From positions 310,001-374,000 of the forward strand of contig NZ_JAHCSG010000003.1 in the NCBI RefSeq assembly GCF_018474015.1: 64,000 nt of DNA. The letters run 5' to 3'. The position numbers and the translations under genes are program-made. The notes below the pieces were generated by a model. It was not told the origin of the DNA. It saw nothing but the letters and a program-made list of their open reading frames with translations, and did no database searches. How positions within the stretch are numbered: the first letter of the stretch is position 1; the number at the start of each line of letters is the position of its first letter. Positions 1,234-53,300 of the stretch are shown here, one piece after another. Origin of the DNA: Williamsia sp. CHRR-6 (lineage in GTDB: Bacteria > Actinomycetota > Actinomycetes > Mycobacteriales > Mycobacteriaceae).

Positions 1234-1335
1234 CTTGCACGGGCCGCCCCGGTTCGCACGGTCTGGGTTCGTTCGCACAGTCGGGTTCCGTTCGCACGCC
1301 GCATGCGCCGTGCGAAACGGCATGCGCCGTGCGAA
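1234..1335. repeat. 19-bp phased TTCGCACG array, copy 1
   Basis: TTCGCACG-type octamers start at 1253, 1272 (TTCGCACA) and 1291, exactly 19 bp apart, with a degenerate unit (CTTGCACG) at 1234 in the same phase. The orientation then flips: CGTGCGAA starts at 1309 and 1328, again 19 bp apart. The centre is TTCGCACG, two bases, GCATGC, two bases, CGTGCGAA (1291-1316). The array lies 13 bp past the stop codon of the PPE-like gene, between two genes transcribed in the same direction. Confidence 0.9.
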
Positions 1336-1347
1336 ACCACGACAAGT

Positions 1348-3129
1348 TCAGCGGAGGGGCGCACCCGTGCCGCCACCCCGAACGGGGCGGTCGTCGGTGG
1401 TGTCGAGGTTGAGGCCACCGATCACCGTCGGTGCCACCTCCTGCTCTCCGCCCACGATCTCCTCGCCGTTGGCCTTGGAGTTCAGGTAGCGGGCGGTCTT
1501 GTGGCCCTTACCTTCACCGCCCTCTCCGCCCGGCCGGGCACCGCCCATGGGCGCACCACCCATCGCCCCCGGCGCGCCAGGGCGACCGTTCTGCAATGCA
1601 GCCTGCTCAGCAGCCACCATCTTCTCCGCCGCACCCATCGCACCGGCGCGCGCCTGTAACGCCTTCTCTGCCGCCGCGGCACCACCGAGGCCACCACCAG
1701 CACCGCCGCCCCCGCCGCCTCCCTTGCCCATCGCGGCGGCTGCTTTCGCGGCGCGCTCGGCGGCAGCTTTCTCGGCATTGGCCAACGCACTCGCAGACCG
1801 GGTGGCGGCCGACCCTGCCCCCTTGCCTGCGCCGTTCAATCCCTTCGCCGCGTTACCTGCCTGAGACGCCGCCGACTGCGCAGCACCCGCCGGGTTCCCC
1901 GCCGCAGCCTTCGCCGCCGCCTGCTGAGCCGCCGCCGTCTTCGCCGCAGCCTCCTTCGCCACCGCATCGGCATTCGCAGCGCGCGTCAACTGCGCTGCGT
2001 TCTTCCCAGCGGCAGAAGTGGGCGTGCCACCAGTGCCCGTTGAACCGGGGCCCGACGGACCAGACGGCCCGGGCGAAGTCGACTGCAACGTCTTAGGGAT
2101 AGATGCCGCACCTTTGTTGCCCACCGGTTGTCCGGGCAACCCCATCGGCACCAGCGCGCCGACCGGGGACTGCGGATCAGGGATATTGCCCAACCTTGTC
2201 CCTGCTGCTGCGACCCCAGGGTTGTAACTGGCAGTGATTTGGGATCGTGCCCACTGCTCGATGTCGGCATTCTTCTTGGCGAACGCCGCGAAAGCAATCG
2301 TAGATCCCGCGTTTACCGAAGACTCCTTCGCGTCATCGAGCATCTTTTTCAGCTCGGCGAAACGCAGCTTATTGTTTTCCACGGTCCGGGACCAGCCGTC
2401 AATTACTCGACCGTTTGTGAAGGCCTGCTCCACGACTTTGTCGGATGTGTCAACAAAACCTTGCATACCGGACCGTATCGCATCCTTGGCTGTTCCCGTC
2501 CAGGATCCGTCCTGAAACAGTTTGTCGATCTCAGTGTGAAACTTACCCATCACGGCGTCGAGATCTCTCGTCACCTGCAGCCAGTTCTCGCCAAGGGCCC
2601 GAACTTTATCCGTTTCTGCCGGCTGCGACATAGCGTAACCCCAGTCAGTGAGCGCGCCCGCAGCTGCCTCGATGGTGACGTCACAGGGGAATCTTCCCGC
2701 GACAGGCGCCCTCATAGTCTTTGGATCACTCGACTTGACTGACGGCGACGTACTCCCGGATCCGACTTTCGGATATCCGCGCGCTGTATCGCTATTAGAA
2801 GCGAGGTGCCGAGCGTTCTCCTCATCTTGATCAGTAATTCGCAAACCAGCCTGGCGGACAGCATCGCGCATCTCGGTCATTGCGTCCGACAGTCGCTGAA
2901 GCGCAGAAATAAACACATCGGCTAGATCGGCTAGCGCTGTCTGAATATTTCTTGCAGAAACGAAGTCTCCAGCAGAGCCGGTGTCCTTCAGCCTCTGTGC
3001 GCTGTTTAGGATTTCAAGGAGCAAGACCGACGCCTCGTTGCATTGCCGACAAATCGCCCGTGCAGTCTCGGGATCAAACTTCATGGCCGAATCGGAGATT
3101 ATCTGCTGAAAAATATTGTGCTCGGTCAT
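1348..3129 (-). CDS. PPE/EspB-like helical ESX-associated protein with Ala/Gly-rich tail
   Basis: The 593-aa product has three parts. Residues 1-115 form an EspC-like helical region. Residues about 150-305 form a second helical domain carrying a W-x-G turn (GSWTGTAKDAI). From about 320 on there is a long Ala/Gly/Pro-rich, probably disordered region ending in a short ordered tail (GHKTARYLNSKANGEEIVGG). From family knowledge this resembles PPE- or EspB-like T7SS substrates that are bound by an EspG chaperone, and an EspG-like gene lies two genes upstream. The ATG at 3129 is preferred over a TTG one codon earlier. The N-terminal half is lower in GC than the surroundings, which suggests transfer or rapid divergence. 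The exact substrate class is uncertain. Confidence 0.65.
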   Translation of the reverse strand: MTEHNIFQQIISDSAMKFDPETARAICRQCNEASVLLLEILNSAQRLKDTGSAGDFVSARNIQTALADLADVFISALQRLSDAMTEMRDAVRQAGLRITDQDEENARHLASNSDTARGYPKVGSGSTSPSVKSSDPKTMRAPVAGRFPCDVTIEAAAGALTDWGYAMSQPAETDKVRALGENWLQVTRDLDAVMGKFHTEIDKLFQDGSWTGTAKDAIRSGMQGFVDTSDKVVEQAFTNGRVIDGWSRTVENNKLRFAELKKMLDDAKESSVNAGSTIAFAAFAKKNADIEQWARSQITASYNPGVAAAGTRLGNIPDPQSPVGALVPMGLPGQPVGNKGAASIPKTLQSTSPGPSGPSGPGSTGTGGTPTSAAGKNAAQLTRAANADAVAKEAAAKTAAAQQAAAKAAAGNPAGAAQSAASQAGNAAKGLNGAGKGAGSAATRSASALANAEKAAAERAAKAAAAMGKGGGGGGGAGGGLGGAAAAEKALQARAGAMGAAEKMVAAEQAALQNGRPGAPGAMGGAPMGGARPGGEGGEGKGHKTARYLNSKANGEEIVGGEQEVAPTVIGGLNLDTTDDRPVRGGGTGAPLR

Positions 3130-51545: not shown

Positions 51546-52298
51546 ATGAGCACTGTGCTGAATCCGTCGCAACTTGTCGGTCGCGACAACATCCCCGGCA
51601 ACACCTACGCTTACTACCTGAACCTGGAGAAGCCCTGGATCATGTCCAAGGGCGCGATGATCGCCTACTACGGGCAGATGCAGTTCACCGCGCTGATGCA
51701 GGGTCTGCGCGCTGGGATGTTGGGCCACCTGGCCGGCACCGTCAGCGCCCCGATGTACATGGGCAACTTCGTCATTGCCCAGGGCCAGGGCGTCCTGATC
51801 ATCGGTGACCGTGGCTACGACATCAACTCCTACGATCTCGACGCAGGCAACCTCACGATCCGCGCGGCCAACCTGTTGGCCTTCGAGCCGGGCCTGGAAC
51901 TCAAGCAGTCGATCGTGCCGGGATTTCTCACGCTACTGGGCACCGGAACGTTCCTGGCCTCGTCCAACGGGCCGGTGATGTTCGCCGAACCGCCGCTGCG
52001 GGTGGACCCGCAGGCGTTGGTGGGCTGGGCTGACTGTCCGTCGCCAAGTCACCACTACGACCAGAACTGGATCAACGGTTTCATGGCGGCCGGTGCGGCG
52101 ATGATGGGCGCCGGCAGCGGTGAGGAGCAGCAGTTCGACTTCACCGGTGCCGGAACAGTTCTCATCCAGTCCACCGAAAAGATCATCAATGATGTCGACA
52201 TCGTGCGGACCATCGAGGCCCAGATCCCCGGGCTGTCGCAGGCCGGACTGCAGTCGGTGATCGCCCGCGCACGCGCCAACCTGCAGCAGCAGCAGTAG
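51546..52298 (+). CDS. AIM24-family protein 3
   Basis: The 250-aa third paralogue has KGAMIAYYGQMQFTALMQG, GVLIIGDRGYDINSYDLDAG, LLGTGTFLASSNGPVMF and LRVDPQALVGWADCPSPSHH, followed by a helical Gln-rich tail ending in four Gln. The ATG follows GAGGGA. It has diverged most and carries the Cys-His segment (DCPSPSHHYD) in place of SWRDAVG. The 19-bp repeat array begins three bases after its stop. Confidence 0.82.
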   Translation: MSTVLNPSQLVGRDNIPGNTYAYYLNLEKPWIMSKGAMIAYYGQMQFTALMQGLRAGMLGHLAGTVSAPMYMGNFVIAQGQGVLIIGDRGYDINSYDLDAGNLTIRAANLLAFEPGLELKQSIVPGFLTLLGTGTFLASSNGPVMFAEPPLRVDPQALVGWADCPSPSHHYDQNWINGFMAAGAAMMGAGSGEEQQFDFTGAGTVLIQSTEKIINDVDIVRTIEAQIPGLSQAGLQSVIARARANLQQQQ

Positions 52299-52301
52299 CT
52301 C

Positions 52302-52479
52302 CTCGCACGGTCGGCTGCAGTTCGCACGCCCACCACCCGTTCGCACGGAAGGTTGCCGCTCGCACGCTCACCACCCGTTCGCACGGTCGGCTCCAGTTCG
52401 CACGGTGCATGCAGCGTGCGAACTGCACGCCACCGTGCGAATGTGCTGACACCGTGCGAACAGCGGCGAGGCGTGCGAG
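52302..52479. repeat. 19-bp phased TTCGCACG array, copy 2
   Basis: Six forward octamers start at 52302, 52321, 52340, 52359, 52378 and 52397, each 19 bp apart; those at 52302 and 52359 read CTCGCACG. Four inverted octamers start at 52415, 52434, 52453 and 52472, again 19 bp apart (the last CGTGCGAG). The 11-base spacers vary. The centre (52397-52422) has the same TTCGCACG, two bases, GCATGC, two bases, CGTGCGAA layout as the array at 1291-1316. It fills the gap between an AIM24 gene and a convergent fluC gene. Confidence 0.95.
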
Positions 52480-52485
52480 ACAAGC

Positions 52486-52857
52486 TCAGCCGAGAAGGTG
52501 ACCCGCGCCGAGTCCGATCGCGCACGCCAGCAGGGACAGCAGCAGGTTCGCGCCGCCAAAGGCGACGGCGGCACCGGTACGACCAGTCCGCAGCAGGGTG
52601 ACGGTCTCCACGCTGACAGTGCTGAAAGTGGTGTAGCCGCCGCAGAATCCGGTTCCCACCAGGCTCAGCCACGTGCGGTCGGCGTGGCCGGCTGCCACTA
52701 TCCCGGCGATCAGACCGATCAGCATCGACCCGGTGACGTTGACCAGCAGCACCTGCCAGGGCGTGGTCCACCGAAAGCGGTGGACGAGTTCGCCGTCGAC
52801 CACGAACCGCGCCACCGCCCCCAGCGAGCCGGCCAGGGCGACCCACACCCCGATCAT
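52486..52857 (-). CDS. Fluoride channel subunit FluC/CrcB (1)
   Basis: The roughly 123-aa protein has four membrane segments, with VNVTGSMLIGLI (Asn of the fluoride path) and GFCGGYTTFSTVSVE (the Phe-box/Na+ region). FluC proteins form dual-topology dimers that expel fluoride. Here two different genes lie side by side, consistent with a heterodimer of fixed opposite topologies. The ATG at 52857 overlaps the stop of the upstream fluC (ATGA). Confidence 0.92.
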   Translation of the reverse strand: MIGVWVALAGSLGAVARFVVDGELVHRFRWTTPWQVLLVNVTGSMLIGLIAGIVAAGHADRTWLSLVGTGFCGGYTTFSTVSVETVTLLRTGRTGAAVAFGGANLLLSLLACAIGLGAGHLLG

Positions 52858-53300
52858 CGGCGCCGACCCGTACGCCACAGACCTACCGTCCGGCGGCCCG
52901 CGAGATAGCCCAGTGCCGCCCCCGCGAGCCCCACTGAGACGGTGGCGATCACGTAGCCCACCGCCGGCAGCCAGTGCCCGTCGGCGATCAGCCGGTCAGT
53001 TTCCAACGCAAACGCGCTATAGGTGGTCAGTGATCCACAGAACCCCACGCCCACGAGTAGCCGGGCCTGCAGCCGAGCACCCGTGTCGTCACCGAGGCCG
53101 ACGAGGGTGGCCGCCAACAGACCGAGGATGAACGACCCGATGGCATTGACTCCGATTGTCGCCCACGGCCACTCGCCGCGAGCGGCAGGCAGTGCCGTCT
53201 CCGCGCCGTAACGCACAGCGGTGCCTGCCAGACCACCTACGAACACCAGCGCCAGCAGTGGCCAATGCAGGTGTCGTGGGCGATGGGTCTTGTCAGGCAC
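52854..53300 (-). CDS. Fluoride channel subunit FluC/CrcB (2)
   Basis: The 148-aa protein has four membrane segments, VNAIGSFILGLLAA and GFCGSLTTYSAFALE. The Phe position of the filter motif is Tyr here (TTYS versus TTFS), which is seen in one half of heterodimeric pairs. N- and C-termini are strongly basic (DKTHRPRHLHW; RRTVGLWRTGRRR), which should fix its topology. It is 26 bases from ohr, leaving no room for a fluoride riboswitch directly upstream. Confidence 0.9.
   Translation of the reverse strand: MPDKTHRPRHLHWPLLALVFVGGLAGTAVRYGAETALPAARGEWPWATIGVNAIGSFILGLLAATLVGLGDDTGARLQARLLVGVGFCGSLTTYSAFALETDRLIADGHWLPAVGYVIATVSVGLAGAALGYLAGRRTVGLWRTGRRR

Follow-up and report, generated by a model that had tools for sequence, protein, structure and literature searches.

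Why does one eight-base word stand ten times in strict phase, in two facing series, between two convergent genes? The question arises in the window, the 64,000-nucleotide stretch of the Williamsia sp. CHRR-6 genome that was analysed as a whole. A first-pass annotation had described a ten-unit array at an exact 19-bp pitch that flips its orientation around GCATGC and fills the gap between its neighbours almost to the base. The array is real and this anatomy holds: six forward and four inverted octamers are present, every step within an orientation is 19 bp, the dyad lies at 52407-52412 with a step of 18, and 3 + 6 bases are spare from stop codon to stop codon. A small correction concerns the octamer itself, which is exactly TTCGCACG in seven of the ten units and reads CTCGCACG at 52302, 52359 and 52472. 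The features are as follows.

51555..52298, plus strand: AIM24-domain gene (PF01987), stop 3 nt ahead of the array, start from our own gene call
52302..52404, plus strand: forward arm, six octamers (52302, 52321, 52340, 52359, 52378, 52397) at 19-bp pitch
52397..52422, no strand: central 26-bp imperfect palindrome TTCGCACG-GTGCATGCAG-CGTGCGAA, octamer-to-octamer step 18
52415..52479, minus strand: reverse arm, four inverted octamers (52415, 52434, 52453, 52472) at 19-bp pitch
52486..52878, minus strand: CrcB-like gene (PF02537), convergent, stop 6 nt past the array
1234..1335 (L047:3035-3136), no strand: second array of the same family, forward octamers at 1234, 1253, 1272 and 1291, inverted ones at 1309 and 1328, 19/18 geometry, GCATGC centre

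The array family in the source genome

The second array was absent from the first-pass annotation and was also missed by our strict ladder detector. This motif-agnostic search, which requires at least two forward 8-mers at a constant pitch of 15-30 followed by at least two inverted ones at equal pitch, found the 52302-52479 array once in the 64-kb window and gave nothing in five dinucleotide shuffles. Beside the second array (window ~1348-2631, minus strand; L047:3149-4432) and beside arrays near L051:3227-4825 and L052:1189-3132 are encoded three otherwise different proteins whose C-terminal 100 residues are 94-95% identical, as though gene conversion had homogenised them. These three proteins have no Pfam match and are ESX-associated in appearance by eye.

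Throughout the source genome (4.0 Mb, 14 contigs), two TTCGCACG octamers 19 apart occur 43 times, and the reversed control occurs not once. Grouped, they form 14 arrays of 19/18 geometry, distributed over 13 intergenic regions. The first-pass annotation had made its reading depend on phased arrays recurring in this or related genomes, and further arrays are present in both. Counted by phase, the units number 72 forward and 60 reverse in 15 rows, a region broken by a contig end having been entered twice and counted as one. The dyad step is 18 in 13 cases and 37 in two, as if one unit had decayed there, and GCATGC stands at the centre of 11 of the 14 arrays.

Of 792 spacer positions compared between neighbouring units, 363 differ. 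Between loci the spacers are saturated, being no more alike (mean best match 2.81) than after permutation of columns (2.81, range 2.58-2.95); those of one arm resemble each other (4.7 mismatches, compared with 6.3 after permutation), a trace of tandem duplication. The octamers are exact in 77 of 132 units, with 0.53 mismatches on average, and 95 of the 96 same-strand neighbour steps of up to 30 bp are exactly 19, the other being 20. A pitch so constant across such variable spacers supports the selection on spacing that had been claimed from the window alone. Recent copying does not explain the shared word, since octamer and pitch persist across loci whose spacers are saturated. The same saturation speaks against recent copying of whole arrays, and the simplest explanation is that word and spacing are under constraint.

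Several observations on the individual arrays stand apart from this. The first T of the octamer is C in 14 of 57 forward units and in 4 of 45 reverse ones, and the seventh C is T in 11 of 45 reverse units and in 1 of 57 forward ones (source-genome arrays, for example L042, L044, L049 and L050); on hand reading, a link of this strand asymmetry to gene orientation looked inconsistent. One array, built as a higher-order tandem repeat of 140 bp, is interrupted by an assembly break (G000:C2:1-342 and G000:C8:94145-94308, G000 being the source genome). At L049:2900-3500, two ladders lie upstream of a nadB-like gene, between divergent genes; in relatives (for example L113 and L117) the gene immediately ahead of the nadB-like one lies on the same strand, and a local rearrangement is possible. 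A TPP riboswitch (L046:2153-2267, minus strand) adjoins the thiE array locus. On the 3' side of thiE (L104, L105, L107, L110, L111), a short conserved leader-peptide-like frame of the MxRxxVVxRRSGV type and then a G+C hairpin precede the next gene, attenuator-like in appearance by eye.

Placement and range of the ladders

A unit lies within 40 nt of a gene 3' end in 11 of the 13 source-genome regions, compared with 26% of intergenic bases. Over 31 regions of the genus, scored on our own codon-usage gene calls with some hand readings, 15 gene pairs are convergent, 13 tandem and 3 divergent; with 16 of 31 regions tandem or divergent, convergent-only placement is ruled out. The convergent share expected from 802 sampled gene pairs is 18.8%, giving an enrichment of p 1.8e-4 by pairs and 4e-7 by bases, which comes from the relatives (11/18); the source genome alone has 4/13 (p 0.22). 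In this scoring, L043a was called tandem by hand, a decayed VOC-like frame ending just ahead of it; a tRNA was taken as the right neighbour of L041; and L079 was entered as convergent although the longer piece L154 gave a different right-hand call. The Pseudonocardia locus L074, an in-gene cluster (L077:4653), the second clusters of L033 and L080, and duplicate fetches were left out of the count.

A degenerate pattern consisting of the dyad plus one unit, searched in one genome per species (84,980), gave 14 loci, a count that may leave out the window's own record: 12 in Williamsia, one in Pseudonocardia and one in Curtobacterium. The Curtobacterium locus (L081) fits the degenerate pattern and not the detector, and was rejected. 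Exact two-unit matches are present in six of the eight Williamsia genomes, the source genome included; those in genera g26 and g6 (L031, L032) have no ladder and were taken as chance. A phage origin was likewise discarded, the one viral contig with a two-unit match being without a ladder. At orthologous sites the arrays are absent: the thiE locus has an array in none of seven relatives, and the AIM24-crcB gap consists of a bare 14 bases in G001 and holds a ladder of another word, GTTGGGCA at 21 bp, in G007.

Ladders built on other words were found by the detector in intergenic DNA of several relatives, namely G007 (ACGCGGCA at pitch 19, CAGTTGGG at 21), G002, which is W. serinedens (ACGCTCCG at 19, CGAGCGTG at 21), and G005 (AGCGTGC at 21). 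In genus g9 (G015, 540 kb), AATCCGT, TCCGTTCG and CGTGTCGC form ladders at pitch 19, two more ladders have pitch 20 and one has pitch 29; the shuffles run beside these other-word ladders gave none. The detector returned no ladder in 120-140 kb each of G016, G022, G031 and G035, three matches at pitch 15-27 in G010, two of them in genes, and one match, in a gene, in 325 kb drawn from a mix of 20 family genomes (four below 3 kb). We made no use of matches in genes at pitch 15-30 in L077 (two), L162, L173, L226, L231 (one), L245 (two) and L255 (one), nor of L231:19380 (pitch 15, outside a called gene). In W. serinedens, TTCGCC-type repeats lie on either side of a TTCGCACG ladder in a single intergenic region (L163:16460-17080), and separate strong GACGAGAGCCCCC hairpins adjoin both stop codons there, as read by eye.

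AbiEi-like genes and their flanking words

Two arrays of the source genome flank a single gene, G000:C1:856229-857179 (L044), with homology to AbiEi_1 and AbiEi_4. Its protein-coding neighbours specify ribosomal L33 and DUF520, with tRNA genes between, and no AbiEii nucleotidyltransferase was present among these Pfam-tested neighbours. W. deligens has the same layout, an AbiEi-like gene between two TTCGCACG ladders; relative to the source genome, its YajQ (DUF520) and ribosomal L33 are 88-89% identical, the genes farther out 58-85% and the AbiEi-like protein 51%. In genus g9, an AbiEi-like gene that scores just under the Pfam cut-off stands between two ladders of other words, and on the one Pseudonocardia contig that the ladder pattern returned, the ladder is followed by an AbiEi-like gene, whose other side has related repeats.

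An alignment of 17 family members gave, at E of 0.1 or below, AbiEi_4 in 7, REase_MTES_1575 in 7 and DUF559 in 6; several Pfam matches are at or below the cut-off. The family profile matches PDB 3hrl, an endonuclease-like protein, over the C-terminal part (E 4e-4). We take the REase/DUF559-type domain to be of the PD-(D/E)XK type. The L044 protein alone matches AbiEi models only, and its REase half is predicted from the family alignment.

Most family members carry repeats of their own in their flanks, often as opposite arms to the left and right of the gene. The source-genome paralog on C8 (G000:C8:5008-5694) has TCGACCGTGCCGA-type units at 22 bp, five on the left and three inverted on the right; that at C1:868 has CCGCCCACTCGAC-type units at 21 bp, two inverted on the left and five on the right. 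Family genes of G007 have GTGTTGGGCC (21 bp) and GGCACGGTCGGCGG (22 bp) arms, a family gene on a Tsukamurella plasmid has GTGGGGGA at ~19-21 bp, and the ortholog in G001, a genome without exact TTCGCACG pairs, has TTCGCACC/TTCGCATC in its flanks. The words, read by eye, appear to drift with protein identity at the YajQ/tRNA-Tyr locus: proteins 51-53% identical go with TTCGCACG or TTCGCACC, 45% with the TTCGCC type, and 34% (Tsukamurella) with GTGGGGGA.

The association was put in numbers by a flank test that required at least three phased units in a 300-bp flank or at least two 11-mers common to both flanks, criteria that were set after the flanks had been viewed. By this test, 16 of 20 family genes, eight of the 20 being orthologs at one locus, were positive; the failing ones were L264, L267, L270 and L271. 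With the four ladder-found genes removed, the remaining 16 came from protein search or random sampling without use of ladders, and 12 of them were positive as against 104 of 791 control genes, the control flanks including coding DNA (Fisher p 5.1e-8). Taken singly, the shared 11-mer was seen in 10/16 versus 167/791 and phased units in 6/16 versus 29/791. An earlier version using 9-mers, before word length was changed and the criteria were combined, had given at least six shared inverted 9-mers in 10/20 versus 35/791 and at least three phased units in 9/20 versus 29/791. The L203/L204 gene, available as two fetched pieces, was left out, and the right flank of G004b (L272) comprised only 57 bases.

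If a flank word is also a dispersed word, the one beside the C8 paralog should recur as phased arrays elsewhere in the source genome. The search for TCGACCGTGCCGA, with at most three mismatches allowed in 26 fixed bases, gave 91 phased pairs in 23 clusters, with none for the reversed control. Two clusters are the flanks of the C8 gene itself and 21 lie elsewhere at the 22-bp pitch (the p22 family); six of these 21 have both orientations, five strictly forward then reverse and one mixed, and 15 have one orientation only. The word of the third paralog recurs once, as four phased units at L046:32-95 on a different contig from the gene, and at one place each in G007 and G002.

Evidence for specificity in the DNA examined from other genomes is mixed. 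In 400 kb of G007, where the crcB ladder has a related word, the L136 word pair does not recur; that of L273 occurs nowhere in 200 kb of G005 and once in G007; that of L145 is found at two places in G007 and also at two in G002. Five genomes contain the TTCGCC word pair, and the L201 word recurs at two more places in G016 and at one in G031. In W. serinedens, TTCGCACG ladders are present even though the ortholog there has mainly TTCGCC repeats in its flanks. G003 (W. herbipolensis) has kept the arrays, and its ortholog contains an in-frame stop. G007, with no exact TTCGCACG pair, has one protein match in two overlapping frames with stops.

Interpretation, rival explanations and known systems

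Among the options offered by the first-pass annotation, the cooperative protein array fares best. We consider it somewhat probable that the ladders are arrays bound by cognate AbiEi/REase-type proteins, and that the array in the window is a dispersed copy of the cis component of a two-part system. Its trans component would be fast-evolving proteins combining an AbiEi-type winged helix with a REase_MTES_1575/DUF559-type domain, each with its own short non-palindromic word repeated serially at a fixed pitch of 19-22 bp, often in two facing arms. Here the word would be TTCGCACG, the pitch 19 and the cognate gene G000:C1:856229-857179, between its two TTCGCACG ladders. Protein units may bind each octamer as a head-to-tail row from either side, touching neighbours one pitch away, until both arms meet at the dyad with a special contact at the 18-bp step. 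Lying mostly just behind stop codons, the arrays could form a boundary or roadblock between transcription units. Alternatively or additionally, they may be sites through which the element spreads, with a selfish benefit to the nuclease-type gene as in REP/RAYT. Of the parts of this reading, the cognacy of protein and word is quite probable, and the boundary role is tentative and rather doubtful.

The bidirectional terminator that had also been suggested from the window we regard as unlikely. It would have the transcript zip into a ladder of eight-base stems, a rung every 19 nt, that ends both convergent transcripts, and a bound protein is not excluded by it. The genus-wide excess of convergent pairs and the closeness to gene 3' ends suit such a role, as do the recurrence of the same ladder anatomy with many different words and the stable RNA fold of the 52302-52479 array (z -5.5 and -6.1 on the two strands); the 1234-1335 array, however, folds unremarkably (z -0.8 and -1.3). 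The proposed RNA or cruciform ladder of eight-base stems itself is not supported by comparison between copies. Although 32 of 52 nested rungs depart from the consensus, none does so with a matching change in its partner, and pairing is at the permuted level for octamers as well as for spacers. The central palindromes (27 sequences) have no covariation over shuffles, and their position next to the octamer is paired in 9 and unpaired in 18. A consensus scan at the 52302-52479 array found no G+C stem-loop with a T run in 51900-52900, and Rfam at the gathering threshold, over the window and 12 array loci, returned only tRNAs and one TPP riboswitch. Moreover, a hairpin needs neither one octamer at 13 regions nor a rigid pitch, and W. 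serinedens already has the separate hairpins beside its stops at L163. What stands of the suggestion is the convergent bias across the genus; against it are the non-significant bias in the source genome and the tandem and divergent regions. As the two-armed form occurs at convergent, tandem and divergent places alike, a DNA element fits better than an RNA element.

Two further explanations accept a DNA element and deny it the proposed partner or function. The arrays might be plain dispersed intergenic repeats of a REP- or MITE-like kind without host function, spread by some enzyme and tolerated behind genes. Their dispersed and lineage-limited occurrence, their absence from orthologous sites (thiE in the seven relatives, the bare AIM24-crcB gap of G001) and the tolerance of gene 3' space for inserts would all be expected of such repeats. 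The copies, however, have only octamer, centre and pitch in common, their saturated spacers speaking against recent copying of the shared word, and the Y1 (RAYT) transposase is absent from all eight Williamsia genomes; we judge this explanation improbable. Somewhat less probable still is that AbiEi/REase genes merely favour repeat-rich intergenic regions and that the arrays are sites of some other protein. Arrays and genes are also found apart, G003 keeps its arrays beside a broken gene, and the words of several genes are not clearly genome-specific in other genomes. Against this, searching with the flank word uncovered dispersed arrays for each of the two further paralogs of the source genome, and flank repeats are found in only 104 of the 791 control genes. 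Binding by cognate proteins is the reading we prefer.

In its widest form, that reading would define an undescribed class of genome element, for which we see the case from sequence comparison as evenly balanced. AbiEi-winged-helix/REase families would each have a private non-palindromic word, set in phased arrays (19-22 bp pitch) that surround the family gene itself and also stand behind genes at tens of sites, and would co-evolve with it word by word in Mycobacteriales and Pseudonocardia. A single genome would then contain several orthogonal protein-array pairs, partitioning transcription units or propagating selfishly.

Known systems resemble the ladders in part. The antitoxin of AbiE type IV toxin-antitoxin systems, AbiEi, binds inverted repeats cooperatively, and the AbiEi_4/AbiEi_1 homology relates the present proteins to it; unlike AbiE, they have a nuclease-type C-terminal region according to the family alignment, sites throughout the genome and no AbiEii among the Pfam-tested neighbours of L044. 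The iterons of plasmid origins are direct repeats near 19-22 bp pitch with a variable number of units. The ladders share these properties, but differ from iterons in occupying many chromosomal places, often with two inverted arms and at gene 3' ends; no Rep gene was present among the Pfam-tested neighbours of the arrays. Mycobacterial TRIT elements, a name found in PMC3526491, are intrinsic terminators. Like TRIT and the clustered-hairpin terminators described in PMC8355165, the ladders lie behind stop codons and have two complementary arms; in contrast to both, they have no T-tract (scan of the window array), no pairing-preserving changes, a fixed pitch and a shared word. Within the open-access literature, taken at the level of titles and opening lines of abstracts together with passages of PMC5217627, PMC3526491 and PMC8355165, and with subscription and MTES_1575-domain work aside, neither such arrays nor a pairing of AbiEi/REase genes with arrays is described.

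The closest likeness is to REP/BIME sequences with their RAYT genes (REPtrons), which are likewise dispersed intergenic repeats in inverted arrangement that also flank the gene of a presumed cognate nuclease-like protein. The REPtron-type arrangement is seen in the L044 gene with its TTCGCACG ladders and in the C8 gene with its TCGACCGTGCCGA arrays and 21 further places. In REP sequences a GTAG or CGTC tag, named in PMC3733652, marks one end of a short hairpin. In the ladders, by contrast, a non-palindromic word is repeated directly every 19-22 bp; no GTAG- or CGTC-tagged hairpin was found in the position table of units and centres, and the Y1 transposase (PF01797) was detected in 0 of 8 Williamsia genomes, with 5 of 14 control genomes positive. 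Membership of REP/RAYT was rejected on these two defining features. The pairing of ladder and protein is best read as REPtron-like in logic but probably unrelated. If this is true, the uncharacterised AbiEi_4 plus REase_MTES_1575/DUF559 protein family would gain a DNA partner, and the word beside each gene would be a readable code that tells where else in the genome its protein acts. Many natural protein-word pairs would become available for studying the evolution of DNA specificity at fixed spacing, and the ladders would be either another case of the REP/RAYT logic, unrelated to the first, or sequence-specific elements of one class that mark boundaries at gene ends.
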